From a bacterium (GTDB taxonomy: Bacteria > Lernaellota > Lernaellaia > JACKCT01), in assembly GCA_019912885.1 (NCBI GenBank), contig JAIOHV010000218.1:1-42272 (forward strand): 42,272 nt of DNA. Direction: 5' to 3'. A program made the position numbers and the translations under genes. The notes under the pieces were generated by a model. That model worked only from the letters and a program-made list of their open reading frames with translations, did not search any database and was not told where the DNA came from. Of the stretch, positions 21,869 to 39,700 are shown piece by piece (positions within the stretch are counted from its first letter, which is position 1; each line of letters opens with the position of its first letter).

Positions 21869-24800
21869 ATGAACATTCTGATGCTTCATCCGCACGACAT
21901 CTACTCGAATTCCGAGCCGTGGACCGTCCGCATCACGTATCTCGCGACGGAATTCGTGAAGCGCGGCCACAACGTGCGTCTGATGTATCACCTCATCGAC
22001 CCGCGCCTTGACCTTAAGGACGCGACCGCGCGCCAGGAATATCCGTTCGTCACGATTCCCTGCTATCGCCACCAGATGGCGCTTATCGGCAAGATGCGTT
22101 CGGTCATGGAATTCGCGCGCTGGGCGGACGTGATCCATTTCCAGAAGTGTTTCCCGCACGTGTCCGTGCCGGCGCTCTGGGCGGGCTATCGCCTCGGCAA
22201 GCCGGTCCACTACGACTGGGACGACTGGGAATTCGGCATCTACAATTACAATCCCATGAACCGCCTCGTCGGCGCGTCCATCGAAACGTTCGAGCGCGTC
22301 CTGCCGCGCATGGCCGATTCCGTCTCTGTCGCGTCGGAGGCGCTGCGCAAGATGGCGATCGAGCGCGGCGTGCCCGAGGCGCGTATCTTCGACGGCCACG
22401 TCGGCGCGGACATCGACCGCTTCCGGCCGGATATCGACGGATCGCGCGTGCGCGAGGAGCACCACATCGAAGGGCCGATCGTGCTCTATCTCGGGCAGCT
22501 TCACGGCGCGCAATACGCCGAACTGTTCCTGCAGGCGGCCAAGCTCGTGCTCGACCGCGGCGAGAATCCGACGTTCCTCGTGGTCGGCGGGGGCGAGCGT
22601 TTCGGCGAGCTTTTCCAACTCGCGGAAAACTACGGTGTCGGCCACCGCGTCATCTTCACCGGCAGCGTCGATCACGAAGTCATTCCCGAATACGTCGCGG
22701 CGGCGGACGTCGCGGTCGCGTGCTTCGCGGATACGCCGCAGGTTGCAACCAAGTCACCCCTGAAGGTCTGCGAGTATCTCGCAAGCGGCAAGGCGATCGT
22801 GGCAAGCAACGTCGGCGAGGTGCCGCGTATGATCGGCGACGCGGGCGTCCTCGTTCCCGCGGGTGACGCGCCGGCGCTGGCCGACGGCATCGTGCAACTT
22901 CTGGCGAATAAGGAGTTGCGCGTTCGCCTGTCCGCGAAAGCCCGGCAGCGCGCCGAAACCGAGTTCAACTGGGGCGTCACCGCGGAAAACCTGCTGCGTG
23001 CGTACGACATGATTTTGCACGAAACGCGGCTGCTCTACTGGAAGACGGGCAAGGATGCGCGCTCGCGCTCGCCGTTCCTCGTCACCCCGTCGGGCGCGCC
23101 GCGCGGAATTCCGACCTCCAAATGGGTCAAGCCGCCGGCGGCGAAAACGGAGACGGCGCCGATCCCGGCCGCGAAGGCGGACCCGAAAAAGTCCGGCGGC
23201 GGAAACGGCGTGCCGCGAGGCTCGACAGGCGGCAACGGTAACGGCAACGGTTCGCGCGAATTCGTGGCAAGCGCGCCGGCGGCAAGACCCGAAAAGGTCG
23301 ATGCGAAATCCGCCTCGGATGCGCCCGGCGATGGCGAAAAGGTTCCCGAAGGCTTCGTCCCGGTTCAATTCGTGACGACGAAAATCAAGACGTCCGACGC
23401 GGGCGGCCTTGCGGTGGCGACAAGCGAGACGACCGCGATTCCCGCGCGCGAGACCACGCCGGATGCGCCGTCGGTTCACGACGAGGAAAAACCGCGTCCG
23501 AGTCGCCTGGCCAATGGCAACGGCAAGTCGAACGGCAACGGGTCGGCCCGCGTCCCGAATGGAAACGGTGCGGCCAACGGCAAGTCCACGTCCAACGGTT
23601 CCGCGAACGGAAATGACCCAAACGGCGGTGGCGAAAACGATCCCGGCACGAACGGCAACGCGGCGAAAAAACGCGTCGATCCGTTCGCGAACAAGGGCGC
23701 GCGGCCGCCGCTTCCGAAGATCGCAAATCCGCCAAAACCGCTCGATTACAACCTGGGCCCGTTTGCGCCGTTGCGTGGATTCATCGAGGCGAACCTCGAC
23801 GTTGTGGGCGTGCTCGACGGGCGCTTCGCGTATATCGGCCCGCATACCGTGCAGTTCGATCCGACGGACATGTGCCCGAACGACTGCATCGCGTGCTGGT
23901 GCCGCTCGCCGCTCCTGCTCGACAAGCTGATGCCGTGGGAGGAGCAGAAGCAGCGGCTCGACCTGTCGATCCTGGAGGATGTGCTCGACGACCTCGTCGC
24001 CACGGGAACGAAGGAGATCTACATCGCCGGCGGCGGCGAGCCGATGGCGTACCCGAAGATCCTCCAGCTTTGCGAATCGATCAAAAAGCGCGGGCTGATC
24101 TGCAACATCAACACGAGCTTCATCAACGTCACCAAGGACGTGGCGCACGAGCTGGCCCGCATGAAGGTCGACTACATGACCGTCAGCGTATGGGCCGGCA
24201 CGCCGGAGACCTATGTCCTGACGCACCCGAGCAAGACCGAAGAGGCGTTCTGGGATCTCAAGGAGGCGCTGACGTACCTGAACGAGGTCAAGGACGTCGT
24301 TCCGTACATCAAGACCTACCACGTGCTGTCGAATCTGAACTTCCACGAGATGAAAAAGATGGTGGACTTCGCCATCGACACGCGGTCGGAGTCGATCGAG
24401 TGGACGCTCGTCGACACGATGCCCGACCGCACCGACTCGCTGCTGCTTTCCGCGGAGCAGTCGAAATGGCTTTACGAGGAGGCGCTTCGCATCAAGCAAT
24501 GGATTGTCGGCGACGAAAAGGAGGCGCGCGTTCACCTGTTCATGTTCGATCAGTTCCTGAACCGCATCTCCGGCGATCACACGACGCGCGGGGAGCACGA
24601 TCGCCTCGTGATCGACTCCATGCCGTGCACGGTCGGCTGGCAGTTCGCGCGCGTGCTCGCCAACGGCAACATCAATAGCTGTCTCAAGAGCCATCGCATT
24701 CCCACCGGATCGCTGTACCAAAAGCGGTTCATGGATATCTGGACGAACGAGAAGCAGGAGGAGTTCCGCGAGAAGACGAACGTCTACACCAAGGCGGACC

Positions 24801-25042
24801 CCTGGTTCTCCAATATCGGAAACGACCCGAACGCGAAATGCGGATGCTACAAGTCGTGCGACGATCTGGGCCGCATCAAGCATATGTACAACCGCGTTCG
24901 CGGCCTTTCGCGCACGCAGCTCGCCGTGCTCCGCGCGGCGCAAGTGTGGCTGCGCGCCACCGGCCAGTACATCGGGTCCGAAAAGATGCAGCCGCGGATC
25001 GAAAAGCGGCGGGCCGATGTCCGGGCACGTTTATCGGGATGA
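21869..25042 (+). CDS. fusion: GT4 glycosyltransferase and radical SAM/SPASM enzyme
   Basis: A 1057-residue protein of three parts. Residues 1 to about 385 are a GT-B glycosyltransferase of family 4, with FVKRGHNVRLMY, GPIVLYLGQLHGAQYAE and the donor-site helix SPLKVCEYLASGKAIVASNVG. Residues about 390-620 are a disordered linker rich in Ala, Pro and repeated Asn-Gly (NGNGNGS, NGNGKSNGNG). Residues about 625-1057 are a radical SAM domain with CX3CX2C (C669, C673, C676), GGGEP for SAM binding, and a SPASM-type cysteine region (PCTVGWQF, NINSCLKS, CGCYKSC). The fusion suggests a radical modification made on the sugar before or after transfer. The radical SAM part is closely similar to that fused to the carbamoyltransferase gene at 25637. 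The gene overlaps the next by 26 bp. Confidence 0.9.
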   Translation: MNILMLHPHDIYSNSEPWTVRITYLATEFVKRGHNVRLMYHLIDPRLDLKDATARQEYPFVTIPCYRHQMALIGKMRSVMEFARWADVIHFQKCFPHVSVPALWAGYRLGKPVHYDWDDWEFGIYNYNPMNRLVGASIETFERVLPRMADSVSVASEALRKMAIERGVPEARIFDGHVGADIDRFRPDIDGSRVREEHHIEGPIVLYLGQLHGAQYAELFLQAAKLVLDRGENPTFLVVGGGERFGELFQLAENYGVGHRVIFTGSVDHEVIPEYVAAADVAVACFADTPQVATKSPLKVCEYLASGKAIVASNVGEVPRMIGDAGVLVPAGDAPALADGIVQLLANKELRVRLSAKARQRAETEFNWGVTAENLLRAYDMILHETRLLYWKTGKDARSRSPFLVTPSGAPRGIPTSKWVKPPAAKTETAPIPAAKADPKKSGGGNGVPRGSTGGNGNGNGSREFVASAPAARPEKVDAKSASDAPGDGEKVPEGFVPVQFVTTKIKTSDAGGLAVATSETTAIPARETTPDAPSVHDEEKPRPSRLANGNGKSNGNGSARVPNGNGAANGKSTSNGSANGNDPNGGGENDPGTNGNAAKKRVDPFANKGARPPLPKIANPPKPLDYNLGPFAPLRGFIEANLDVVGVLDGRFAYIGPHTVQFDPTDMCPNDCIACWCRSPLLLDKLMPWEEQKQRLDLSILEDVLDDLVATGTKEIYIAGGGEPMAYPKILQLCESIKKRGLICNINTSFINVTKDVAHELARMKVDYMTVSVWAGTPETYVLTHPSKTEEAFWDLKEALTYLNEVKDVVPYIKTYHVLSNLNFHEMKKMVDFAIDTRSESIEWTLVDTMPDRTDSLLLSAEQSKWLYEEALRIKQWIVGDEKEARVHLFMFDQFLNRISGDHTTRGEHDRLVIDSMPCTVGWQFARVLANGNINSCLKSHRIPTGSLYQKRFMDIWTNEKQEEFREKTNVYTKADPWFSNIGNDPNAKCGCYKSCDDLGRIKHMYNRVRGLSRTQLAVLRAAQVWLRATGQYIGSEKMQPRIEKRRADVRARLSG
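23516..23541 (+). repeat. Asn-Gly linker repeat, copy 1
   Basis: A 26-bp stretch in the GT4-radical SAM linker, encoding part of NGNGKSNGNG, matches bases 39799-39824 in the giant radical SAM gene with a single mismatch (G or A in the middle Ser-Asn junction). Neighbouring linker DNA repeats the AACGGCAACGG theme several times. Confidence 0.8.
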
Positions 25043-25637
25043 CCGCGGCGGGCGGATGTTTCGCGTCCGCTGGCCGAACTTTCGCATCGAGCGCCCCGGG
25101 CGCATCGAGGATGAGGTCGCTCGTCTTCTCGCCGGGCGCCTTGTCGTCGGCGTCGTGTGGGGGCGATCGGAATTCGGACCCCGTGCGCTCGGTCGGCGCA
25201 GTATCCTGGCCGATCCCCGGTGGGACGGCATGCGCGATCACCTGAACGATCGCGTCAAGCACCGCCAGTGGTTTCGTCCGTATGCACCGGCCGTTCTCGC
25301 CGAACACGCGCGCGACTGGTTCGAACTCGATCACGAAAGCCCGCACATGCTGCTGGTCGCCACGGTGCGCGCGGACAAGCGCGAAATCGTCCCGGCGATC
25401 ACACACGTCGATGCCACCGCGCGCCCGCAGACGGTGCCGGAAGACGGGTCACGCTTGCGCGGCGTCGTCGAGGCATTTCATCGCATCACCGGCGTGCCGA
25501 TCGTATTGAACACGAGCTTCAACGATCACGGCGAGCCGATCGTGGAAACGCCGCTCGACGCGTTTCAGTGCTTCGCGGGGACGGAGCTCGACGCGATCGC
25601 CATCGGCGGCAACCTGCTTTTGAAAGAGACCGCGTGA
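25017..25637 (+). CDS. stand-alone carbamoyltransferase C-terminal domain (NodU/TobZ family)
   Basis: 206 residues matching only the C-terminal, YrdC-like half of NodU/TobZ O-carbamoyltransferases, the half that makes carbamoyl-adenylate from carbamoyl phosphate and ATP. The family motifs are FGPRALGRRSILADPR (near residue 55), FRPYAPAVL, HVDATARPQTV and VLNTSFNDHGEPIVETPLDA. The catalytic N-terminal half is missing from this gene but is encoded by the next one (25637), so the pair should form one enzyme from two chains. Because the halves are in reversed order relative to the normal protein, a simple frameshift cannot explain the split. The ATG lies inside the 3' end of the GT4-radical SAM gene. 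Confidence 0.88.
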   Translation: MSGHVYRDDRGGRMFRVRWPNFRIERPGRIEDEVARLLAGRLVVGVVWGRSEFGPRALGRRSILADPRWDGMRDHLNDRVKHRQWFRPYAPAVLAEHARDWFELDHESPHMLLVATVRADKREIVPAITHVDATARPQTVPEDGSRLRGVVEAFHRITGVPIVLNTSFNDHGEPIVETPLDAFQCFAGTELDAIAIGGNLLLKETA

Positions 25638-28456
25638 TGCCGCGATTTGTTCTTGGCACGGTCGTCTCCGACCACGACAGCGCCGCGTGCCTGCTCGCCG
25701 ACGGCAAGCTCGTGGCCGCGGTGAACGAGGAGCGCATCTGCCGCGTGCGTCGCGGGGATCGGCGCAATTCGATCCGCCGGGCGATGGGCGCGGTGCTCGA
25801 CGCGGCGGGCATCGAACTTGCCGGCGTGGATGCGATCTTCTGCGACACGGACCACTACTTTGCGCCGGGCGGCGCTCCCGTGCCCGTCTTTCCGGATTAC
25901 CCGCGCCCGGAGCGCATTTTTCAGATCACGCACCACGTCGGCCACGCCGCGAGCGCGTTTCTGGCGTCGCCGTTTGACGACGCGGCGTTCCTGACTGTGG
26001 ACGCCTCGGGCGGCATCGCGCCGGTCATCGCCGACGAGAACGACAAGCGCTACTGGAGTTTTTCGCCGCGCGAGCTCGATTTCATCGGGCGGGGTTTTCG
26101 CGCGGCGCACACGCACCCGAAACTCGACGAGTTGCTCACGCGGCTTCCTGGCGGCGAGGCGCGCAACTACCCCGCCGAAAGCCTGACGGCGGGATACGCC
26201 GTGCGCGGCAAGCCGATGGTGGAACTGTTCGACGCATTCGCGGAATCGTCGCTCGGCTACTTCTACGCCCTTTGCTCGCACCTTCTCGACATGGAAGAGG
26301 GCAGCTTCATGGGCCTGGCGAGCTACGGCCGGCCGGGGCCGATGGTCGAGGCGATGCGCGACGTTCTGCGCCTTCAGCCCGAAGGGCGGATTCGCATCGA
26401 CAAGTCGGCGATGGACTTCTGGCACGAAGCGTACGTGCTCGAAAATCCGACCGCGCTCTCGCGGCTGTCCACGCGCTTTTGCAAGACGTTCGGCCCGGGG
26501 CGCAAGTTCTTCGAGGCGATCACGCCGCGCCACATGGACTTCGCGTACGCCGCGCAAAAGCGCCTCGAGGACGCGATGGTCCACGTCGCGACGCACCTCG
26601 CGCGCGAGACGGGCCGAAAGAATCTCGTGCTGGCGGGCGGCGTCGCGCTGAATTCGGTCGCAAACGGCCTTGTGCTGCAAAAGACACCGTTCGATCGGAT
26701 CTTCATTCAGCCCGCCGCCTCGGACGACGGCCTTGCGCTTGGCAACGCGCTCTTTGGGCACTACGTACTCGAGAATCTGCCGCGCGCGCGCTTTTTCGAC
26801 ATGGGCGACGCCGCGCTCGGCCCGGATCGCGAGGACGAGGCGGACGCGTTCGTCGACGCGATCGCCGAGGGGAAACTGCCGGTGGAGTACGTCGATTCGC
26901 TGCCGTATGTCGATGGCGTGGATGTGCTCTGGAAAGGCGAGGGCGACGCCGAATACAGACGCGTCGCGATGGAGCGCATCTCGCCGCACCGGCACTTCGC
27001 GGAATTGCCGATCGGCCGCGCGGGCGGCGTGGAATACTATTTCGAGGTCCGCGCGAAAAATCCGATGGAGTACGCGAAACCGGTGCCGGCGATGGAGGCG
27101 GCGGTGGAGCGCAAACGCGCCGCCAACGACGATATCGATTTTTCCGGAGCGATCGGGAATATCGAGATCGTCGCATCCGGGGACGGGCACGGGCACGGGC
27201 AGGGGAGCGGCAACGGGGATTTGGTGCTGAAGCATCCCGAACCTGACCTGGCCGCCGATCCGCGTCGGCCGGCCGATCCGTTCGAGATGTTCCTTTACGA
27301 TCACCGCGATGTGGCCGGCATTCTCGACGGGCGCCGCGCGTTCGTGGGTCCGGAGCAGGTCGTTATCGATCCGACCAACCGCTGCGACAACAACTGCCTC
27401 GCGTGCTGGACGAAATCGCCGCTGCTCGGCCGCTTCTCCCCGCCCGAGGAGTGGCATCGTGAACAGATGCCCGCGGATGTCATGCACCGCACCATCGACG
27501 AACTGGCGGACCTTGGCACGAAGCGCATCCGCTTCACCGGCGGCGGCGAACCGTTCGTGCATCCGCAGATGATCGAGTTTCTGGAACACGTGAAGGCGCG
27601 CGGGATGATCGCCGCGTTGACGACGAATTTCACCGCGCTGACCGAAAAGAAAGTCGAGCGCATGGCCGGGATCGGCGTTGACGAGGTGACCGCGTCGATT
27701 TGGGCCGGCACCGCGGACATGTACGCGCGCAGCCATCCCGCCAAGACGCAAAAGACCTTCGAGAAAATCGAGCAGCTTTTGCGCCTGTTCTGCGCGAACA
27801 AGGCGCCGCACGCGCAAGTGATCGTCGCGAACGTACTGTTTTCGATGAATTACATGGAGGCGCGCGAGATGCTCGATTTCGCGCTTCGCGTAGGCGCGGA
27901 CGGCGTTTATTACGCGGTGGTCGATCCGGTCGCCGATCCGATGAACGGCCTTTTGCTCAACGCGAATCACCTTGGCGTCGTGCGCGCGCATCTTGTGGAG
28001 GTCGCCGAGCGCGTGGAAAAGATCAACCGCACGCGGCCACGCCCGTTCATCCTGGACAATTTTGAGGGCACGCTGCGCCGCGTGAACGCCACGGGCGCCA
28101 TAACGGGCGACTACGATCGCGTCGCGGTGGACGAGGTGCCCTGCTACATCGGCTGGATTTTCTGCCGCATCCTGACCGACGGCACGGTGGTGCCGTGTTG
28201 CCGGGGCGTGGAGATGCCGATGGGCAACTTGCACAAGCAGACGTTCACGGACATCTGGCGGGGAAAGGTGTACGACCACTTCCGCCAAATGGCGCTTGTC
28301 GAAAAGAAGACGCACCCATTTTTCCGGTCGATCGCCTGCCACCGCACCTGCGACAACCTGATGCACAACCAGGACGAACACCGGCGCATCGGCGCGCTCT
28401 CGGAAACGGAAAAGGAACATCTGGTGCGTTTTGTCGTGCGCGGGGAGGCCCGTTGA
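25637..28456 (+). CDS. fusion: carbamoyltransferase N-terminal domain and radical SAM/SPASM enzyme
   Basis: 939 residues. Residues 1 to about 385 are the Kae1-like N-terminal half of a NodU/TobZ carbamoyltransferase, which transfers the carbamoyl group: VVSDHDSAACLLADGKLVA, ITHHVGHAASAF (metal-binding His), FMGLASYG and LVLAGGVALNSVANG. The usual C-terminal half is absent and supplied by the preceding gene. A spacer with GHGHGQGSGNGD (about 515-528) leads to a radical SAM domain with CX3CX2C (C583, C587, C590), FTGGGEP and SPASM-type cysteines (PCYIGWIFC, VVPCCRG, CHRTC). The start is the ATG sharing one base with the previous stop; a GTG one codon earlier is an alternative. The long open frame upstream of it has no homology. 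Carbamoylation and a radical step are thus physically linked. Confidence 0.9.
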   Translation: MPRFVLGTVVSDHDSAACLLADGKLVAAVNEERICRVRRGDRRNSIRRAMGAVLDAAGIELAGVDAIFCDTDHYFAPGGAPVPVFPDYPRPERIFQITHHVGHAASAFLASPFDDAAFLTVDASGGIAPVIADENDKRYWSFSPRELDFIGRGFRAAHTHPKLDELLTRLPGGEARNYPAESLTAGYAVRGKPMVELFDAFAESSLGYFYALCSHLLDMEEGSFMGLASYGRPGPMVEAMRDVLRLQPEGRIRIDKSAMDFWHEAYVLENPTALSRLSTRFCKTFGPGRKFFEAITPRHMDFAYAAQKRLEDAMVHVATHLARETGRKNLVLAGGVALNSVANGLVLQKTPFDRIFIQPAASDDGLALGNALFGHYVLENLPRARFFDMGDAALGPDREDEADAFVDAIAEGKLPVEYVDSLPYVDGVDVLWKGEGDAEYRRVAMERISPHRHFAELPIGRAGGVEYYFEVRAKNPMEYAKPVPAMEAAVERKRAANDDIDFSGAIGNIEIVASGDGHGHGQGSGNGDLVLKHPEPDLAADPRRPADPFEMFLYDHRDVAGILDGRRAFVGPEQVVIDPTNRCDNNCLACWTKSPLLGRFSPPEEWHREQMPADVMHRTIDELADLGTKRIRFTGGGEPFVHPQMIEFLEHVKARGMIAALTTNFTALTEKKVERMAGIGVDEVTASIWAGTADMYARSHPAKTQKTFEKIEQLLRLFCANKAPHAQVIVANVLFSMNYMEAREMLDFALRVGADGVYYAVVDPVADPMNGLLLNANHLGVVRAHLVEVAERVEKINRTRPRPFILDNFEGTLRRVNATGAITGDYDRVAVDEVPCYIGWIFCRILTDGTVVPCCRGVEMPMGNLHKQTFTDIWRGKVYDHFRQMALVEKKTHPFFRSIACHRTCDNLMHNQDEHRRIGALSETEKEHLVRFVVRGEAR

Positions 28457-29412
28457 GCCGCGTCCTGATTACCGGCGGCGCGGGCTTCATTGGCCATCAT
28501 CTGGCGCGGCATATGCTGACGCGCGGGTGGTCGGTGGCCGTCATCGACAACGAAGCCACCGGCCGTCGGGAAGACGTGCCCCCGTCGTGCGACTACCTCA
28601 AAGGCGACGTTCGCAACGTCGCCGACGTGCGCGAGGCGTTTGCGACCCAACCGGACGTCGTTTTTCACTGCGCGGCGCAGGCGAGCAACATCCGGTCCTT
28701 CGACGATCCGCTCGCCGATCTGAATACGAATTTGCTGGGGACCGTGAACGTAACCCTGCAATGTATCGAACAAAAAGTGCCGAAGCTCGTGTACGCGGGT
28801 TCGATGACCGAGTATGGTGTCCTGAGCGCCCTGCCCGTGGGCGAGGCGCATCCTCTTGTGCCGATCTCGTATTACGGGGTCGGCAAGGCCGCGGCGGAAC
28901 ACTTTCTGATGGCGACCGCGAATCGCGTCGACCTGGGGGCGAAATTTTCCGTCACCGTGCCGCGGATGTTCAACGTGTACGGACCCGGACAGAGTCTGAC
29001 GAACCCCTATCAGGGCGTCCTTGCGATCTTCATCGGCCAGGTGCTGCGCGGCGAGCCGTGTACCGTGGACGGCGACGGAACGCAGTCGCGCGATTTCGTT
29101 TACGTCGACGACGTGTGCGAAGCGTGGGAGCGCATGTCGCGTCCCGGTGTTGCCGACAACACCGCCGTGAATCTCGGTTCCGGCGTTGAGCGCTCGGTCA
29201 ACGACCTGGTTCGCGAAGTGTGCCTGGCCGCGGGCAAGGACCCGGCGGTTTATCCGATCATGCGCCGGCCACGAAGGCCGGGCGATCAGGAGCGCTGCGC
29301 GGCGGACATCGCGCGCGCGAAGGAACGGCTCGGATGGGCGCCCGCGGTCACGTTCGCCGAAGGCCTCGCGCGCACGATGGCGTGGGCGCGCGCAAGCGGG
29401 GGGGGCGTCTGA
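28453..29412 (+). CDS. NAD-dependent sugar epimerase/dehydratase (extended SDR)
   Basis: 319 residues with the extended short-chain dehydrogenase fold. The NAD-binding motif is GGAGFIGHH (8-16) and the partner strand is VAVIDNEATGR. The catalytic Ser lies in YAGSMTEYG, and YYGVGK provides the Tyr-Lys pair. The C-terminal RDFVYVDDVCEAWERM and SDLAR-like AADIARAKERLGWAP are typical of nucleotide-sugar epimerases (GalE/WbpP group). It should prepare or epimerise a nucleotide sugar for the GT4 enzyme of this operon; the substrate is not identifiable. The start is a TTG in a TTGA overlap with the previous stop codon. The last base of its stop is the first base of the next ATG. Confidence 0.9.
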   Translation: MSRVLITGGAGFIGHHLARHMLTRGWSVAVIDNEATGRREDVPPSCDYLKGDVRNVADVREAFATQPDVVFHCAAQASNIRSFDDPLADLNTNLLGTVNVTLQCIEQKVPKLVYAGSMTEYGVLSALPVGEAHPLVPISYYGVGKAAAEHFLMATANRVDLGAKFSVTVPRMFNVYGPGQSLTNPYQGVLAIFIGQVLRGEPCTVDGDGTQSRDFVYVDDVCEAWERMSRPGVADNTAVNLGSGVERSVNDLVREVCLAAGKDPAVYPIMRRPRRPGDQERCAADIARAKERLGWAPAVTFAEGLARTMAWARASGGGV

Positions 29413-30500
29413 TGTCGCTTCTTTCCGGAATCAAGTCGCAGGTCATCAACATGCGGGCCTTCCGCCCGTTCTTCACGCCGCTTCGCGTCGCGCGCGACGC
29501 GATCACGTTCCCCGTCGATTACTACCTCGGCGACGGGCGCGTGCACGGCATGCCGAGCATCGTGAACCTGAACATCACGACGGTCTGCAATCTCAAGTGT
29601 CCGTTCTGTTTCAATAACGACATTCTCGGCAAACGCACGGAACTTTCGACGGCGGAAATGGTCGAACTTGTCGATCAACTCTCGAAGACCGGCGCGGGTT
29701 TGTTTCTCTCCGGCGGCGAGCCTTTCGCGCGCAAGGACATTTACGACATCATCGTCGAGGCCAAGCGGCGGGGCATGCCCGTCGGCGTCGTCACAAACGG
29801 CACGCTGTTGAAAGAGCCGCAGGTGACGCGCCTTCGCGACATCGGCCTTGACGTCGTCATCCTGAGTTTTCACGGCACGCGCGAGGCCCACAACAAGGCC
29901 GTGCTGATGGACGGCGCGTACGACAAGACGATGCACGCGCTCGACCTGTTCCGCGCCGCGTGGCCGTCGCCGGGGCCGATGATCAACTACGTCATCACCG
30001 CGGAGTCGCTGCCCCACCTGCCGGATTTCGTGCGGGAGCTCGACGGGCGCGACAACCTCGTCATGCGCCTGTCGCACCTGAACTTCGTGACGCCGACGGA
30101 AGCCGAGGCCAACCGTAACTACTGGATCGAAAACTTCGGCGAGGCGCCGGACAAGCTCCTGCACTTCCAATACGAGCCGCCCGAACGCATGTACGAGCCG
30201 ATCCTCGACATCCTCGAAAAGAATCGGGAGATCTTCACCAAGCCGGTGTTGAACGCGGACGAGATGAAGACCTGGTACAGCCCGAAGTTCGACCTCGACC
30301 GCCGGTGCGTTTTCATCTGGCGTTCGACGTACGTGAACTCCGACGGCGACGTCTATCCCTGCCAGTTCCTCTACATGAAGATGGGGAACATCAAGGAGAA
30401 GCCGCTCGCCGAGATCTGGAACGGCGAACGCTACCGCCGCTTCCGCGCGCTCCTGCGCAAAGGACTCACTCCCGGCTGCGCCCGGTGCTGCAAGCTTTGA
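29412..30500 (+). CDS. radical SAM/SPASM protein
   Basis: 362 residues. After a 50-residue N-terminal extension, the radical SAM core has CX3CX2C (C59, C63, C66, in CNLKCPFCF), FLSGGEPFARKD for SAM binding, and VVTNGTLL. A SPASM-type C-terminus has RCVFIWRST, NSDGDVYPCQF and the end GCARCCKL, suggesting at least one auxiliary iron-sulfur cluster. It differs in its core motifs from the modules fused to GT4 and to the carbamoyltransferase (CPFCFNN here, CXACW there), so it is probably not a recent copy of them. The substrate is unknown; context suggests the sugar or lipid product of the operon. Translation starts at the ATG overlapping the epimerase stop by one base. Confidence 0.9.
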   Translation: MSLLSGIKSQVINMRAFRPFFTPLRVARDAITFPVDYYLGDGRVHGMPSIVNLNITTVCNLKCPFCFNNDILGKRTELSTAEMVELVDQLSKTGAGLFLSGGEPFARKDIYDIIVEAKRRGMPVGVVTNGTLLKEPQVTRLRDIGLDVVILSFHGTREAHNKAVLMDGAYDKTMHALDLFRAAWPSPGPMINYVITAESLPHLPDFVRELDGRDNLVMRLSHLNFVTPTEAEANRNYWIENFGEAPDKLLHFQYEPPERMYEPILDILEKNREIFTKPVLNADEMKTWYSPKFDLDRRCVFIWRSTYVNSDGDVYPCQFLYMKMGNIKEKPLAEIWNGERYRRFRALLRKGLTPGCARCCKL

Positions 30501-30504
30501 CGGC

Positions 30505-32211
30505 ATGATCGTTCTCGGCATCTCCGACAACCACGGAGCCGGGGCGGCCGTCGTCATCGACGGGCGCCTCGTCGCCGCCGTCAACGAAGAACGCATCGAC
30601 CGTGAAAAAAATTCGATGGCCTTCCCGTGGGGCGCCATCGACGCATGCCTTTCCATCGCGGGGGTGACTCCGGACGATGTCGATCTCGTCGCGGTCGGCA
30701 GTGAGTTCACGCCGATTTTCGGCCTTCGCCTCGTGAAGGGCTGGCATCGGCGCGTCAAACGAAGCGCCGGCCAGTTCAGCTTCCTGTTCGATCTGTACAT
30801 CATGTACCACCTGCTGGCGCGGGCCATTTCCGTGTTGCGTTCCATCGAAATTCGCCTGTCGCGCTGGTGGATCGGGCGCGGCTTGCGCGCGCACGGCTAT
30901 GACTGCGACGTCCAGCTTTTCGATCATCACCTGTGCCACGCCTGGTCCGTGTACCTCACCGCGCCATTTGACGACGCGGCGGTCGTCACCGCGGACGCGA
31001 TGGGCGACGGCCTGTCCGCAACCGTGTCGATCGCCTGCGCCGGGCGCGTATCCCGCATCTTCGCCCAGGATGGCCGCTGCGCGTTCAACCCGTATTACTC
31101 GCGCATTACCGAATACCTCGGTTTCATCCCGAACCGGCACGAGGGCAAGGTCACGGGCCTCGCGGCGTACGGCGATCCGTCGTTGCTACTCGACGAATTC
31201 GAAAAGAGTGCGCATTTTCGCGGGCCGGGTTTTTCGACGTTTCGCGTCTGGATGCCGAACCCGCGCGCGTGGGGGCTTTATCGAAAAATTCGCGGCCACA
31301 GGCGCGAGGACATCGCGGCCGCCTGCCAGCGCAACCTCGAGGCGCAAATGGGCAGGTTCGTTTCCCGATGGCTTGAGCGCACCGGCAAGTCGCGCCTCGC
31401 GCTCGCGGGCGGCATCTTCGAGAACGTCAAGTTGAATCAGCGCCTGCACGAGCTTTCGGGCGTGCAGGAAATCTACATCTTCCCGAACATGTCCGACGGC
31501 GGCCTCGCGACCGGCGCGGCGCTTGGCGCTTCGCGCCGCGGTCGAAAGACTCTCGAGACGCCCTATCTCGGCATGGCGTACGGCGAGGACGAATTGGAGG
31601 CGGCGATCCGCGACGCCCGGCTCGAACACGAGCGGCCCGACGATCTCGCGACGGCGGTGGCGCGGCTTGTCGCCGATCGCAAGATCGTGGCGCGTTTCGA
31701 CGGCGGCATGGAATACGGCCCCCGCGCGCTCGGACACCGGTCGATCCTTTTTCGCCCGGACGACCCGTCGGCCAACGACTGGTTGAACGAGAAACTGCGC
31801 CGCAGCGAGTTCATGCCATTCGCGCCGGCGGTGCGCGCCGAGCGGGCGCCGGACCTGTTTGTGGGGATCGCCGGCGCCGAATTCACGGCGCGCTTCATGA
31901 ATATCTGCTTTGACTGCACGGACGAGATGAAAACGAAGTGCCCGGGCGTCGTCCACGTGGACGGCACGGCGCGCCCGCAGGTGTTCAAGAGGGCCGAAGA
32001 CGCGCTATACTATGATATTCTGGCGCGTTTTGAGGATCTGACGGGTTTGCCGGCCATCCTCAACACGAGCTTCAATATGCACGAGGAGCCGATCGTCGCC
32101 ACGCCGCGGGATGCGATCCGGGCTTTCCTCGCCGCCGGGCTCGACGCGCTCGCGCTCGGCCCGTTCCTGGTTCGTCCGCGGCGAAAGGCAGCGAATGTCG
32201 ATGTTCATTAA
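30505..32211 (+). CDS. complete NodU/TobZ-family carbamoyltransferase
   Basis: Transfers a carbamoyl group from carbamoyl phosphate, via carbamoyl-adenylate, to a hydroxyl of a sugar or small molecule. The 568 residues are the normal length, with both halves. The N-terminal Kae1-like domain has ISDNHGAGAAVVIDGRLVA, FDHHLCHAWS, VTGLAAYG and LALAGGIFENVKLNQ. The C-terminal YrdC-like domain has YGPRALGHRSIL, FMPFAPAV, HVDGTARPQ and LNTSFNMHEEPIVATP. It is therefore a second carbamoylation system beside the split one at 25017-28456. An insert (about 70-125, with a hydrophobic stretch FSFLFDLYIMYHLLA) is unusual and may touch the membrane. The 3' end overlaps the next gene by 17 bp. Confidence 0.93.
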   Translation: MIVLGISDNHGAGAAVVIDGRLVAAVNEERIDREKNSMAFPWGAIDACLSIAGVTPDDVDLVAVGSEFTPIFGLRLVKGWHRRVKRSAGQFSFLFDLYIMYHLLARAISVLRSIEIRLSRWWIGRGLRAHGYDCDVQLFDHHLCHAWSVYLTAPFDDAAVVTADAMGDGLSATVSIACAGRVSRIFAQDGRCAFNPYYSRITEYLGFIPNRHEGKVTGLAAYGDPSLLLDEFEKSAHFRGPGFSTFRVWMPNPRAWGLYRKIRGHRREDIAAACQRNLEAQMGRFVSRWLERTGKSRLALAGGIFENVKLNQRLHELSGVQEIYIFPNMSDGGLATGAALGASRRGRKTLETPYLGMAYGEDELEAAIRDARLEHERPDDLATAVARLVADRKIVARFDGGMEYGPRALGHRSILFRPDDPSANDWLNEKLRRSEFMPFAPAVRAERAPDLFVGIAGAEFTARFMNICFDCTDEMKTKCPGVVHVDGTARPQVFKRAEDALYYDILARFEDLTGLPAILNTSFNMHEEPIVATPRDAIRAFLAAGLDALALGPFLVRPRRKAANVDVH

Positions 32212-33790
32212 CGGACCCGGCGCGAACGGCCGCGCCAACGGCGCGCGCGAGCCAGGGGCGTCCGCGCGGCCCGTGGACATCCTTTTGTTCTCGCCACCGC
32301 CGTGGCTGGTGACCGGCCCGCCGCTGGGGCTTGCCGCGTTGTCCGCCTGGCTTCGCGGGCGCGGCTGGAATGTCGCGGTCATCGACGGCAACACGCGCGC
32401 CTATCACAAGACGGACACGTCGCTGCGCCCGCTATGGCTGTGGGACAACAGCGCGTTCTGGGAAGATCCCGAACCGGTCGAGGTGAAATTCGGCCCCCTT
32501 CTGCGCGAATTGGCGGACGAGGTCGCGACGCATCGCCCGCGCGTTCTCGGCATCAACGTCGTTTCGCGAAAAGAAGCGGCGAGCGCCATCTTCCTTGCAC
32601 GCCTGAAGGAGCGCTTGCCCGATCTCAAGGTCTTCGTCGGCGGGCCCGGAGCGGGCTGGCGCGAGTCGCGCGATCACATCCGCCAGCTTTGCGGCGATCT
32701 CGTGGACGGCTTCATCGTCGGCGAGGGGGAGCTGGCCTGCGACGAGTTGCTGAGGCGCCTGCGCGACGGTGCGCCGCTCGCGAATCTGCCGGGGTTCGTG
32801 TCCGGACGCCCCGACGGCGAGGAGTGCGTCATCCCGGGGCATTTCATCACGGATATGAACCAGCTTCCGATCCCCGACTTCTCCGATTTCCGCCTCGCGG
32901 ATTACGAGGAGCAGGGGCTCGTCGTCGAGTGGAACCGCGGGTGCGTCGCGCGGTGCACGTATTGCAGCATCAACGATTACTGGAACGCGTTCCGCTTCAA
33001 GGCGCCCGAAAAGGTCGCCGACGAGTTGCGTACGCTGCACGAGCGCCACGGCATTTCGCGCTTCACGATCGTCGATCCGATGGTCAACGGCGATCCGGAA
33101 TTGCTCGATGCGATCTGCGACGCGATCGTCGCGACAGGCATCCATGTGAAATGGTCCGCGGGCATCTCGCCCAATCGTATTGTGGGCAAATCCACGTTCG
33201 AAAAAATGAAGGCCGCGGGCTGCTTCAAGCTTGAGTTCGGCGTCGATTCCGGCAGCCGCACGATGCTTCGCAAGATGGGCAAGCGCTTCAAGCCCGACGA
33301 GGCCGGCCAGATGATGCGCGACTGCAAGGACGCCGGTATCCAGGTGATGCTCTACCTCATCGTCGGCTTCCCCGGCGAAACGGACGAAACGGTGCAGGAG
33401 ACGTGCGACTGGCTCGATCGATGGGGGGGCGCGGTCGATATGATCCGCAATCTTTGCAGCCTGACGATTGAATACGGCACCGCCATCGAAAAGCGCGCCG
33501 ACCTGTTCGGCGTCGAGTTCGACCGTCACGACGTGCAGTGGAAGGACAACTGGCAGGGCAAGGGCGACGACACGCCGCTGCGCCGCGCGATGCGCGTGCG
33601 CAAGGTGATCGACAAGGTGCACGATCTCGGTATTCCGATCGAAACCGAGGTCATCACGGATCCCGAACACGCGACGCACGACGAACACGGCCAGTGGGCC
33701 GGCGGCGAGGGCGCGTCCGACGCCCAAAAGGTCGCGCAGCCGCGCAGCTCGATCATGTGCGCGTCGTTCCCCACGGGTTCGCAGTCGTGA
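32195..33790 (+). CDS. cobalamin-binding-type radical SAM protein (stand-alone module)
   Basis: 531 residues. An N-terminal tail rich in Asn-Gly (MSMFINGPGANGRANGA) precedes a B12-binding-type Rossmann domain (about 25-190; ILLFSPPPWLV, GLAALSAWLRGRGWNVAVIDGN, FIVGEGELACDELL). The radical SAM core has CX3CX2C (C250, C254, C257, in RGCVARCTYC), IVDPMVNGDPELLDA and IVGFPGETDETV. The domain lacks the DXHXXG cobalamin motif, as do many class B family members. Such enzymes usually methylate unactivated carbons or phosphorus, or rearrange rings. It is closest to the second module of the next gene (shared DPMVNXDP and WSAGXSPNR). Two Met codons (32195 and 32201) are possible starts. It overlaps the giant gene by 4 bp (GTGA). 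Confidence 0.88.
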   Translation: MSMFINGPGANGRANGAREPGASARPVDILLFSPPPWLVTGPPLGLAALSAWLRGRGWNVAVIDGNTRAYHKTDTSLRPLWLWDNSAFWEDPEPVEVKFGPLLRELADEVATHRPRVLGINVVSRKEAASAIFLARLKERLPDLKVFVGGPGAGWRESRDHIRQLCGDLVDGFIVGEGELACDELLRRLRDGAPLANLPGFVSGRPDGEECVIPGHFITDMNQLPIPDFSDFRLADYEEQGLVVEWNRGCVARCTYCSINDYWNAFRFKAPEKVADELRTLHERHGISRFTIVDPMVNGDPELLDAICDAIVATGIHVKWSAGISPNRIVGKSTFEKMKAAGCFKLEFGVDSGSRTMLRKMGKRFKPDEAGQMMRDCKDAGIQVMLYLIVGFPGETDETVQETCDWLDRWGGAVDMIRNLCSLTIEYGTAIEKRADLFGVEFDRHDVQWKDNWQGKGDDTPLRRAMRVRKVIDKVHDLGIPIETEVITDPEHATHDEHGQWAGGEGASDAQKVAQPRSSIMCASFPTGSQS

Positions 33791-36700
33791 ACGCCCGCGA
33801 GGCCAAGTCCATCGAGTTCCCGAAACACTTGATGGTCCAGACGGTCTCGCGCTGCAACAGCGGGTGCGTCATGTGCCCGTGGCCCGATACCGCAAAGACG
33901 CAGGCCCAGGGCGAGATGGACGACGCGGTGTACGCGCGCCTCGTGGACGAGGTGAAGCGCTTCCCCGATCTGTCGCGCGTTCTGCTCTATCTGATGAACG
34001 AGCCGACGCTCGACAAAAAGCTCCCCGCGCGAATCGAAATGATGCGCCGCGCGTTGCCGCACGCGGAGATCTACATCATCACGAACGGCCTGTTGCTTGA
34101 CGGCGACTTCGGCGAGCGGCTGATCGACTCGGGTCTGTCCTGGCTGGGCATCTCCATCCACGCGCTCGAACCGGACACCTACGAAAAAATCACCGGGCGC
34201 AAGGACTGGGCGACGGCGCGGCCGAGGCTCGAACGTTTCATCGACCGCGCCCTCGCGGTGCGTGGCGATAATTTCATCCAGGTGAACATCACCAAGGTGC
34301 GCCCGCACATCACACCCGGGGAATACGCCCGCGCCGCCGAACATTGGCGTGAGATCGGCGTGACGCGCGTGGACCTCGACGACGGCTACATCTCCCGCGC
34401 GGGCAGCGTGCCGGTTTACGGACACGAGCGCGCGTACACGCCGCGCACGTCCGGTTGCAAGACGATCTGGGCGTACAAAATGGCGCACGTGTTGTTCAAC
34501 GGCGATGTCATTCCCTGCTGCATGGACTGGCGGCGCAAGGTCGTGTTCGGCAACGTCGCCCGCGACGGCGGCCTGGCGGCGGTGTGGCGCGGCGAAGGGC
34601 GCGCGCGATTTCTCGATGCGCTCGGAAGCGGCGAGCGCCTCCCCGACGAATTTCTTTGCGTGAGTTGCGAGGACGCCATTCCCGCCGAGGGCGCCAACCT
34701 CGCCCAGGATCGCGATCTTTCCGTTGCCGCGACCGGCCCCCATCCAGGCGCCGGGGATTTCGTCGCGGTCAACTTCATCGGCAAGCCGAACGTGCCGATT
34801 GACACGCGCGACGCGGAACCCGAAACGCCGGGTTGCGATGTCAGTGCCGCGAGCGATAGCGAGCGGTCGGTCGCGAACCCGCGCCCGCTTCCGCCTAACG
34901 CCGGCGACGATTCGCCGGCGAGCTACGATCTTGGCGACGCGGTGACGATTGACCCGGCCGCGCCCGTCGGTCCGGCGACCGAAATGGAGGCCGCGGAAGA
35001 CGGCAACGCGGATGCGCTCTTTTTCCTTCCGCCGCCGTGGCAGGTATCGGCGCCGCCGCTCGGCATCGGGGCGATCACCGGCTACCTGCGCGAAAAGGGC
35101 TGGCGGGTGAAGGTGCTCGACGGCAACGTGCGGCTTTACAACATGTCCGATCCGCCCAAGCGCAACCTTTGGGATTGGGAACGCGGTCCGTTCTGGGAAG
35201 GCGAGGAACAGGTGGACGCCGCGTTCGGTGACGATCTGCGCACGCTCGCGGAAGAAGCCGCCGCGTCCGGCGCGAAGGTCTTCGGCATCAACATGGTCTC
35301 GCGCAAGGAGGTGCCGACGCGAATCTTCCTGAAGCGCCTGAAAGAGCTTGCGCCGGATTCGTTCGTTTTTGTCGGCGGCCCGCATGCCAGCCATATCGAC
35401 CTGCGCCGCCACGTGACGTCGTTCCTGCACGAGTTCATCGACGGATTCCTCGTCGGCGAAGGCGAAGCCGTCATGGAGGCGCTGTTGACGCGCATCCGCG
35501 AGGGGCGCGACATCCTCGATTGCCCCGGACTTGCGCGCTGGGATCGCGTGGAAGGCGAGGAGACGCTGAACGCGCCCGCGTTCTTCCCCGACCTCGCCGC
35601 GTTGCCGCCGCCGGATTTCCGCGATTTCGACGCGAACGCCTACGGCTCGCCCGCGCTTGTCGTCGAGTGGAGCCGCGGATGCGTCGGGCGTTGCACGTTC
35701 TGCAACATCCCCGACCTCTGGCAGGACGCGCGCTACAAGCCCGCCGCGAACGTCGTCCGCGAACTTCGGACGCTCGTCGAACGTCACGGCACGAAAATCT
35801 TTTCTGTCGTCGATCCGATGGTGAACAACGACCCGGCGATGCTCGAGGCGATCTGCGACGGCATCATCGAGGCCAACCTCGATGTCACGTGGTCCGCGGG
35901 CATGTCGCCAAACCGCCCGCTGACCGCCGAACAATTCCACAAGATGAAGCAGGCGGGGTGCTATCGCCTGGAGTTCGGCGTCGAGTCCGGCTCCGATCGC
36001 GTGCTGCGCCGGATGAACAAATATTACGACGCCGCCGAGGCCGGGCGCATGCTGCAAGACGCGCACGCGGCGGGGATCGACGTGGTCATCTACCTCATCG
36101 CGGGCTTCCCGGGCGAGACGGACGAGGACGTCGAGGCGACGCTGCGTTTTCTCGAGGAAAACCGCGAGTCGATCGGGCTGGTGCGCAGTTTGAACGGCCT
36201 TGTCATCATCCACGGCACGCCGATTGAGAAGAAATCTCACGTTTTTGGCATTGAACCGATCGACCGACTGGAGAATGGTTGGACCAATCACTGGGTTTCA
36301 GGTGACAATACGCCGGATTTACGCGCAAAACGCGTGGCTCGTATCGAACGTAAGCTCCATGAGCTCGGCATACGGATCGAGTTCCAGAACACGGAAGACG
36401 TGATGCCAAGCGAGATGCTCTACGCGAAGAAGATCGAGGATACGCAATCCCGGCTCGACGCGGTCGGCGCCGAGTTGATCGCGCTGATGGGCCGCGTGGA
36501 CAAGGTTTTGCGCGGCGAGCCGGTGCGCGAGGTTCCGGGCCACAACGAGGTCGCACTCGTGCTCTGCCCGGTTTGGGGCGTGGACATGCCGCCGCTCGGC
36601 ATGGCGACCGTCGCGGGCTTCATGCGCAATCAGGGCTACGACCCGCTCGTGGTCGATCTCAATATCGAGTTGTATCAGGCCGCGTCTCCGGCGCTTCGGC

Positions 36701-39700
36701 GCTTCTTCGAGGAAGACAGCTTCCGCCACTGGACGGATGAAGACTCGTGCCGGCGCATCGTCGCCGCGTTTTCGCGGCCGATCGACGCCGCCGTGGCGCG
36801 CATCATCGAGTCCGGCCGGCGTGTCGTCGGCTTCACCGTCTATTCGCCCAATCGCCTGTTCACGATCGAGGTGATGCGCCGGCTGCGCCGCGCGAATCCC
36901 GAGATCATCCACATCATCGGCGGGCGCGGCATCCAGACCGAAAACGAGCGGCGCCTGTTCCCGCACGATCTCGTCGACCACTTCGTGATCGGCGAAGGCG
37001 AGGTGACGTTCATTCCGCTTCTCGAACGCATTTTTCGCGGTGGCGACCCCACGGGCCTGCCCGGCACGGATCGTTTCGTCGGCCGCGATCTGGCGGGATA
37101 CACGCCGCGCCCGCGCCTGTCCGACCTGACGCTCCTGCCGCCGCCGGCGTACGATCTGTTCCCGCTCGACGCCTATCGCGGCGAGGATCTGCCCGTGCAG
37201 TTTTCGCGCGGGTGCGTCGCGTTTTGCACGTTCTGCAACGACAACAATCGCAACACGGGCTTCCGCACCCGGCCGGGAAGCCACATCGCCTCCGAGCTTC
37301 GGCACCTTGTCGAAACCACGGGACGCAAAAGCTTCCGCTTCAACGACCTGCTCATCAACGGCGACCTCCAGGTTCTCGAGGAGCTGTGCGACGACCTGAT
37401 CGCGATGGACCTCGGCATCCGCTGGATTGCGCTCTTCCAGCCGCGCGGCGACATGACGGGCGAGCTGCTGCAAAAGATGGCCACGGCCGGCTGCTATACC
37501 CTGAACATGGGCGTGGAGTCCGGCTCGGACCGCGTTCTGAAGCGCATGGGCAAGGGCTTCCGCGTCGACGACATGGAGCGCGCGCTCAAGCAGGCGCGAA
37601 GCGCCGGCATCAACACGATGCTCAACTTCTTCGTCGGCTTCCCGGGCGAGCAGGAAGAAGACGTCGACATCACCATCGACTTCATCCGCCGCAACCGCGA
37701 GTGGATTTGCGGCATCACCTCGCTGAACTCGTGCATCCTCCTCGAGGACGCGCCGATCGAGAAGAACTGGCACAAGCTCGGCATCGAGTTCGACGACTAC
37801 GCGACGCGCGACGTCGGCTGGCGCCTCGGCGACAACACGCCCGAGGTGCGCATGGCGCGCCTCGCGAAGCTCACCGCGGCGGTCAAGGAGCTTGGCCTGC
37901 CGATCGTGGTGACCAACGCGGCCGAACGCGCGGCGGATATCGACGTGCTGCCCGAGCCCGTCGCGGAACCGGAGATCTTCGAGGAAGAAACGACCGTCGT
38001 GGGCGCGAATCTGCTTTCGACGATGGCGACGTGCGCGCCGGCGCTTGACGATTTCGACCCGTCCAAGGGTGAGCCGCGCTGGGAGACGGTGCCGGCGGAT
38101 TTCGCGCACGTCATGCTCATCAAGTGCCCCGTTTGGGGCGTCGATGTGCCGCCTTTGGCGATCGCGTATCTCGCGCAGGTCTCCCGCGACGCCGGGTTCA
38201 AGGTTGTCGCGGTCGATATGAACGTGAAGATCCACAACCGCTGCCACGATCGTTCGCTCTGGCGCATGGACCGCTACAAGGAGTGGGCCGATCCGGAGTT
38301 CTTCCCGGCGACTTACGAATCGCTGTGGGAGCTGACCGAACATTACCTGAAACAGATCGCCGCGCACCCCGCGAGGCTCGTCGGGTTCTCCGTTTGCACG
38401 TCGAACTACCTTTTTACGATGGAAACCGCGCGGCGCCTCAAGAAGTTGGCGCCCGAAAAGGTCATCGTGTTCGGAGGCCCGGCGATCACCAACAGCTTCG
38501 ACGTGCAGACGCTCACGCCCGCGGACGGCGACTACCTGTTCTTCGGCGAGGGCGACGTCGGTTTTCCGGAGATCGTCAGCGCGGCCAACGAGAATCGCGC
38601 GCCGAAGGACGTCTACGGCCTGGTGAAGATCGGCACGAGCTTCACGTACGACAGCGTCGATCGCGCGCTCGTCAAGAAGGGCACGTCGATCCCCACGCCG
38701 ACGATGGAAGAGCTGAACGTCAACGAATACACCGGCACCGCGATTCCGCTTTTGGGCAGCCGAGGGTGCGTTCGCAAGTGCACGTTCTGCAACGACCACC
38801 AGATCTATCAGAAGTACCGCCACCGGCCCGCGAAGGAGATCTTCGCGGATATGGAGTGGCACGTGCTCCATCGCGGCGCGCACCACTTCACGTTCCTCGA
38901 CCTCTTGATGAACGGCCACGTCGGGGTGCTTGAGGAGTTCTGCGATCTCATCCTCGAGAAGGGCTATCAGGTCGCCTGGGGCGGGCAGTGCATCATCCGC
39001 AAGGAGATGACGCTCGAGCTGCTCTCCAAGATGCGCAAGGCCGGGTGCATGAGCATCGTGTACGGCATCGAGAGTTTCAACAACAAGGTCCTTCGCGTGA
39101 TGCGCAAGTACTACACGCAGGAGCTGGCGAAAGAAGTCCTCGGCAACACCGTGAAGGCGGGAATCGAACCGATCATCAACATCATCTGCGGCTTCCCGGG
39201 CGAAGGCGAGGAGGAATTCCTCGACACCTACAACTTCATCCGCGACAACCGCGACATCATCGGCCAGGTCGCCTCCGTCTCGCCGTGCCTCGTGAATCTC
39301 GGCAGCGAGCTTTTTGAGCGGTTCGAGGATTTCGACATTCGTTTCGCGCCCGAAGGCGGGTCCGTCAAATGGTTCACGGCCGACGGCTCGAACACATACG
39401 AAAAGCGCCTCGAGCGCGTCATCCGCGTCACGTCGCTTCTGGCCGAGCGCAACAAGCACATCCACACGGTGAACATTTACGACGAGGCCGACCGCGATCA
39501 GCGCGACGTCGCCGACAACGCCGCCCGCGAACGCGCGCGTATGGAAAAGATTCGGCGCGAGGCCGAAGCGGCTCTGGCCCGCGAAGCCGGCGGCGAGGCG
39601 GCATCCGTGGAATCGACCATCGACTTTGATTCATTGTCGCCCGAAGCGCGCGAGGCGCTCGCCAACGGCCTTGCCACCGCGGCGCTGGCGACCGACGTCA

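Follow-up and report, generated by a model that had tools for sequence, protein, structure and literature searches.

The window, which is the whole stretch of DNA analyzed (42,272 nucleotides), makes up the entire contig G000:C218 of a 4.8-Mb genome that is 99% complete. Its organism belongs to Lernaellota; Candidatus Lernaellota is the proposed name for phylum FEN-1099 (PMC13248872). A tightly packed run of genes on the forward strand, from 21869 to 41292, carries nine radical SAM domains within 19.4 kb (Table 1). The intergenic gaps of this run were inspected and none was large enough to hold another gene. Two neighboring members of the run are multidomain fusions. The gene at 21869-25042 (1057 residues) matched the Pfam models for a GT4 glycosyltransferase, Radical_SAM and SPASM, and that at 25637-28456 (939 residues) matched Carbam_trans_N, Radical_SAM and SPASM. 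Their radical SAM domains are referred to below as a (GT4-linked) and b (carbamoyltransferase-linked).

Table 1. Domains and genes of the radical SAM run in the window.
Feature	Position	Strand	Basis
GT4 glycosyltransferase domain, residues 1-390	21869..23038	+	Pfam Glyco_trans_1_4, E 3e-26; subfamily with motif M(N/K)ILM.HPHD.YS..EPWT.RI
Gly/Ala/Pro/Asn low-complexity linker, 238 aa	23039..23752	+	Length in relatives 38-238 aa
Radical SAM/twitch domain, subfamily a (C-x3-C-x2-C-W-C)	23753..25042	+	Pfam, alignment, trees
YrdC-like C-terminal carbamoyltransferase half, separate gene, 206 aa	25017..25637	+	Pfam Carbam_trans_C, E 7e-63
Kae1-like N-terminal carbamoyltransferase half	25637..26761	+	Pfam Carbam_trans_N; metal ligands H99, H103, D122, D363
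Inter-domain segment: end of Kae1-like half, small predicted beta domain (about 26873-27055), Gly/His-rich tail	26762..27274	+	Predicted structure, alignment
Radical SAM/twitch domain, subfamily b (CCRG at auxiliary-cluster region)	27275..28456	+	Pfam, alignment, trees, model
NAD-dependent sugar-nucleotide epimerase/dehydratase	28453..29412	+	Pfam Epimerase, E 8e-51; TTG start inferred
Separate radical SAM/SPASM protein, distant kin of a and b	29412..30500	+	Pfam, pairwise comparison
Intact carbamoyltransferase (Kae1-like + YrdC-like)	30505..32211	+	Pfam
B12-binding radical SAM protein	32195..33790	+	Pfam; start inferred
Chain of about 2500 aa, one SPASM radical SAM and four B12-type radical SAM domains	33784..41292	+	Pfam: 5 Radical_SAM, 5 B12-binding stretches; start inferred

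The original prediction held that a and b share a distinctive core, and its elements (DV.G.LDGR, GP, DPT, C..NC.ACW, SPLL and GGGEP) are all present in both genes. The two regions, each recognized by Pfam Radical_SAM (E 2e-14 and 3e-15), are 32% identical over 391 residues with a score of 251 bits (E about 1e-84), and the best score obtained when one of them was shuffled 500 times was 24.6 bits, which confirms their homology. The N-terminal partners, the GT4 domain and the Kae1-like carbamoyltransferase half, had been described as unrelated, and no significant similarity was found between them. The occurrence of a shared radical SAM module on two unrelated enzymes is real and beyond chance. 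Elsewhere in the operon, the gene at 29412 scored 70 bits against b and 33 bits against a, and the other SPASM domains about 20 bits. Low-complexity linkers had been predicted in both fusions. This description fits the GT4 side; on the carbamoyltransferase side, the domains are instead joined by a conserved segment with a predicted beta domain and a short Gly/His-rich tail.

The gene at 25637 does carry half a carbamoyltransferase, as had been proposed; the complementary YrdC-like half is encoded immediately upstream by a gene that overlaps its neighbors on either side and has one base in common with the 25637 gene (TGATG). The iron ligands of GdmN, H133, H137, D156 and D333 (PMC9633730), align with the four metal ligands of the 25637 protein, in an alignment that assumes an inferred shift of 20 residues in the PDB chain. 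Of the class III NodU/TobZ/GdmN O-carbamoyltransferases, the two catalytic halves and the four metal ligands are all found here, but in two adjacent genes rather than in one chain, in reversed order with the YrdC-like half first, and with a predicted beta domain and a radical SAM domain borne by the Kae1-like half. The gene order GT4-a, C-half, N-half-b is identical in all genomes of the phylum. Judged from the sequences, the carbamoyltransferase is naturally divided between two genes. Formation of carbamoyl-adenylate would be the task of the 25017 protein, and transfer of the carbamoyl group would fall to the 25637 protein. In nine non-Lernaellota genomes tested, no close relative of the N-half of the b fusion was found, and the other carbamoyltransferases there are 35-42% identical to it over half its length. 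AlphaFold modelled this carbamoyltransferase half poorly (mean pLDDT 46), with local values of 58-81 in the small beta domain. Two candidate identities for this small domain were rejected, namely the GlgE N/S domain (Pfam E 0.15, not significant) and the exporter-shared domain of about 200 residues described below (hhalign probability 0.2%).

The locus of the pair is kept in seven of seven Lernaellota genomes and is therefore not an artefact of assembly; in G002 the frames are broken, and in G004 they are broken and the contig starts inside GT4. The epimerase gene adjoins b in four of the seven. The domain order of the large chain at 33784-41292 is identical in G001, G002 and G003, and a version with two B12 domains occurs in Omnitrophota (L119-L121). 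Two other radical SAM chains of the same genome are conserved across the phylum: a fused chain of two radical SAM domains (L018:2870-6487, contig G000:C178), and a single chain with three B12-radical SAM domains and a c-type radical SAM domain (L019:5328-11537, contig G000:C169). Genes for LpxB, MsbA, PMT39 and a KdtA-like protein precede the operon in the window and in G001, and these lipid A neighbor genes were seen in those two genomes only among the seven. Here LpxB (lipid A disaccharide synthase) reads as a fusion with a PAP2-type phosphatase (15247-17085), also in G001; the PMT39 and KdtA-like assignments are backed by Pfam, and the PAP2-LpxB and MsbA-like ones were made by reading only.

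Relatives of the two domains were sought in five phyla or groups besides Lernaellota. Since the large surveys scored the best few candidates per genome, the counts are lower bounds. At E <= 1e-100, the radical SAM family was found in at least 52 of 384 Omnitrophota genomes, at least 3 of 7 of the Caldisericota group, at least 1 of 9 in the phylum of G007, at least 1 of 5 in that of G010, and at least 3 of 279 in the archaeal phylum of G009. In one Omnitrophota genome (G173, L148:1-19001), more than ten radical SAM genes follow one another, and a GDSL-type hydrolase gene lies within the row.

Trees were built from 44 and from 124 domains, the latter by a quick search without bootstrap. In both trees, a grouped with the a-type domains of G007, Omnitrophota and Caldisericota, and b with the b-type domains of the same lineages. 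Because each subfamily spans the same other lineages, the split between them is older than the carbamoyltransferase fusion and, judging by the trees, a and b diverged long ago. The two recur as neighbors in three lineages, among them Omnitrophota and Caldisericota, and in many cases share one chain with a third subfamily, c, which has an insert with four invariant cysteines. Single chains of about 1400-1930 residues in Omnitrophota contain c, a and b in that order, some of them headed by a B12-radical SAM domain. A true b directly follows a in 22 of 23 loci; the subfamily HMM labels were built partly from tree sequences, so that they restate the tree and are not independent of it. The search for stand-alone homologues and other fusion partners thus gave both, the former in L012 of G007, where GT4 is fused to a and a lone b gene lies directly behind. 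Fusions seen in Lernaellota are GT4-a, carbamoyltransferase-b, B12-c and SPASM-B12x4, and in Omnitrophota c-a-b and B12-c-a-b. Outside Lernaellota, GT4-a was present in G007; carbamoyltransferase-b was found in Lernaellota only, in all seven genomes. From this distribution the two fusions look independent; that to GT4 is the more widely spread, and that to the carbamoyltransferase looks specific to Lernaellota.

The C-x3-C-x2-C motif of the SAM-binding cluster is invariant across all a, b and c sequences. In total these have seven cysteines in common, three of the SAM cluster and four auxiliary ones (Cys 301, 319, 374 and 378 in the numbering of a), the latter invariant in A2 and 94-100% conserved across the wider set. 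Members of the full SPASM subfamily have seven cysteines and two auxiliary clusters; the twitch type, which includes BtrN, has four cysteines after the barrel and one auxiliary cluster. Despite the Pfam SPASM match, only four auxiliary cysteines are shared here, as in the twitch type, and the auxiliary-cluster region of BtrN was matched as well (E 1e-7). The pattern of three plus four cysteines points to one extra Fe-S cluster beside the SAM cluster in the a/b/c family, as in BtrN. The AlphaFold model of b (pLDDT 93; 15 sequences) had as its nearest folds in Foldseek SuiB, SkfB, DesII, BlsE, anSME, PqqE and BtrN, all of them radical SAM enzymes with SPASM or twitch domains. The best matches were the peptide-modifying SuiB and SkfB; DesII, BlsE and BtrN act on sugars or cyclitols. 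The barrel is shared with BtrN, DesII and BlsE, but identity to these is 12-17%, and the conserved LDGR...GP N-terminal segment, the GT4 and carbamoyltransferase fusions and the c-a-b arrays set the present family apart. All scores of a and b against named NCBIfam radical SAM families were far under the cut-off; for the tungsten cofactor maturase family TIGR04317 they were 72 and 100 bits against a curated cut-off of 380.

There are definite differences between the subfamilies. Domain a always carries a fourth cysteine (C-x3-C-x2-C-W-C); b and c have CC(R/K). At five more positions, on barrel strands 1, 2, 3, 5 and 6 of the predicted secondary structure, a and b each have a fixed residue, but not the same one. 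The barrel strands are the usual place of substrate binding in radical SAM enzymes. These fixed differences therefore argue for two different reactions, and a and b probably catalyze different steps. The conserved neighborhood ties both to one pathway. The proposal that both act on or recognize the same substrate is plausible if the substrate is one glycan or complex, and a common reaction is unlikely. Restated in this way, with a and b as distinct members of a conserved and probably glycan-tailoring set that are joined to different partners from phylum to phylum, the shared-substrate idea is reasonable.

Gene content around the related loci bears on the nature of the substrate. Most related loci have GT4 copies that are 42-84% identical, compared with 21-37% for other GT4 genes there, and a GT4 of the same subfamily (42-63% identical) was found in 23 of 40 stretches from other lineages, several of which end at contig ends. 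Omnitrophota clusters contain genes for an ABC-2 permease, a Wzt-type ATPase, GT2 and GT4 glycosyltransferases and an amine-oxidase-type flavoprotein, and an intact carbamoyltransferase is present in five Omnitrophota stretches. The Wzt-like ATPases of these clusters end in one to four copies of a domain of about 200 residues. This domain is also found on B12-radical SAM/radical SAM chains and as small stand-alone proteins, with about 130 copies in all (for example L126:3642-4241); it has no useful relative in Pfam, NCBIfam or the PDB, and was absent from all seven Lernaellota genomes, from G007 and from the archaeon G009. The C-terminal domains of Wzt bind the finished glycan, and the radical SAM enzymes thus presumably modify the same glycan. 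The clusters resemble Wzm/Wzt O-antigen systems in their Wzm/Wzt-type genes and glycosyltransferases, in Omnitrophota and in one Lernaellota cluster, but differ in being full of radical SAM and B12-radical SAM enzymes and in having, as the Wzt C-terminal repeats, an undescribed domain that radical SAM enzymes carry as well.

No Wzm/Wzt export genes were found among the genes of the window itself. Wzt_C proteins are encoded in seven of seven Lernaellota genomes; on G003:C119 the genes for a permease of the Wzm type, a radical SAM protein of distant kinship and Wzt follow one another with overlaps, and in G004, G005 and G006 Wzt_C and radical SAM matches lie at interleaved coordinates. The exporter linkage would apply to the window's organism only indirectly, through these other Lernaellota loci and through other phyla. 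A few genes from GT4-a in G006, an ORF (L052:5035-6378, contig G006:C42) looks, by reading, like a class I methyltransferase that carries Wzt_C at its C-terminus. Immediately upstream of the conserved GT4 there is often a gene whose product finishes with a hydrophobic helix and, after it, a C-terminal tail like '..KKLRRMIIFPGS'. This ending occurs in 13 of 952 ORFs of 200 or more residues (loci L013, L052-L054, L119-L121, L135 and L139-L143, with a variant in L012) and is absent in the window. A block resembling these clusters by gene content is carried by a Brachyspira hyodysenteriae plasmid, on which radical SAM genes accompany a group 1 glycosyltransferase, an NAD epimerase and rfb genes; lipooligosaccharide synthesis was proposed for it, and the passages on it report no fusions (PMC4267127).

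We somewhat favor the view that a and b are subfamilies within a conserved group of enzymes whose task is to tailor a lipid-linked glycan of the cell surface. Taken as a recent event, the original prediction has a single module duplicated and then attached to two enzymes, both of which recognize a common substrate through it. The homology is genuine and both fusions sit in neighboring genes, but this history is very improbable: the domains are one family, yet both trees place a and b in separate old subfamilies common to other phyla, which contradicts the timing; the fixed differences lie on the barrel strands, and in L012 b is a lone gene beside GT4-a. It is also rather improbable that the radical SAM domains are maturases of a ribosomally synthesized peptide (RiPP) that the GT4 and carbamoyltransferase decorate. 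The best structural matches, SuiB and SkfB, agree with such a role, and the large B12-radical SAM chain, with its four domains summed, passed the threshold for a RiPP C-methyltransferase subfamily. However, the run at 21869-41292 leaves no space for a precursor gene, there are four auxiliary cysteines, against seven in a full SPASM domain, and the clusters sit amid glycan export and glycosyltransferase genes.

The strongest competitor, although itself unlikely, is a secreted small-molecule natural product, such as an aminoglycoside-like compound or an oligosaccharide antibiotic. NodU/TobZ-type carbamoyltransferases and DesII-, BlsE- and BtrN-like radical SAM enzymes are known from antibiotic pathways, and the GT4, epimerase and B12-radical SAM enzymes would be compatible with one. 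Against this, the genes are syntenic in all seven genomes of the phylum, whereas antibiotic clusters are typically patchy, and in other phyla they are linked to a Wzm/Wzt exporter and share a domain with Wzt.

In the surface-glycan pathway that we favor, GT4 would add a sugar, which a and b would next modify by two distinct radical reactions, most likely oxidation, epimerization or deoxygenation of sugar carbons. The B12-type radical SAM domains would add methyl groups and the two carbamoyltransferases carbamoyl groups, and in many lineages the finished chain would leave through a Wzm/Wzt-type ABC transporter. The fusions would keep the members of one pathway linked, and a and b would act as adjacent partners. 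The analysis establishes the homology, the subfamilies, the fusions and their adjacency, the conserved ligands, the shared domain and, for other phyla, the link to exporters. We infer the order of the steps, each reaction and, for the window's organism, the glycan as substrate. More tentatively, and with the balance somewhat against it, several candidate phyla and DPANN archaea may possess an assembly line of several radical SAM enzymes that work on surface glycans, held together by combinatorial fusions, in which the exporter-shared domain in some phyla would let only correctly modified chains be handled and exported.

Radical SAM chemistry is well known from cofactors, peptides and antibiotics. 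In the open-licence literature on radical SAM enzymes with Wzt or O-antigen, on carbamoyltransferases with SPASM domains and on polysaccharide biosynthesis, this system was not described; the architectures and the system are new, and the individual folds were already known. Given the fusions and the exporter-shared domain, a loosely defined group of hypothetical radical SAM proteins becomes a pathway open to testing, in which every enzyme has a named partner. If the proposed role is correct, large uncultured bacterial groups would harbor, in whole radical SAM arrays devoted to a surface polysaccharide, a new reservoir of unusual sugar chemistry.
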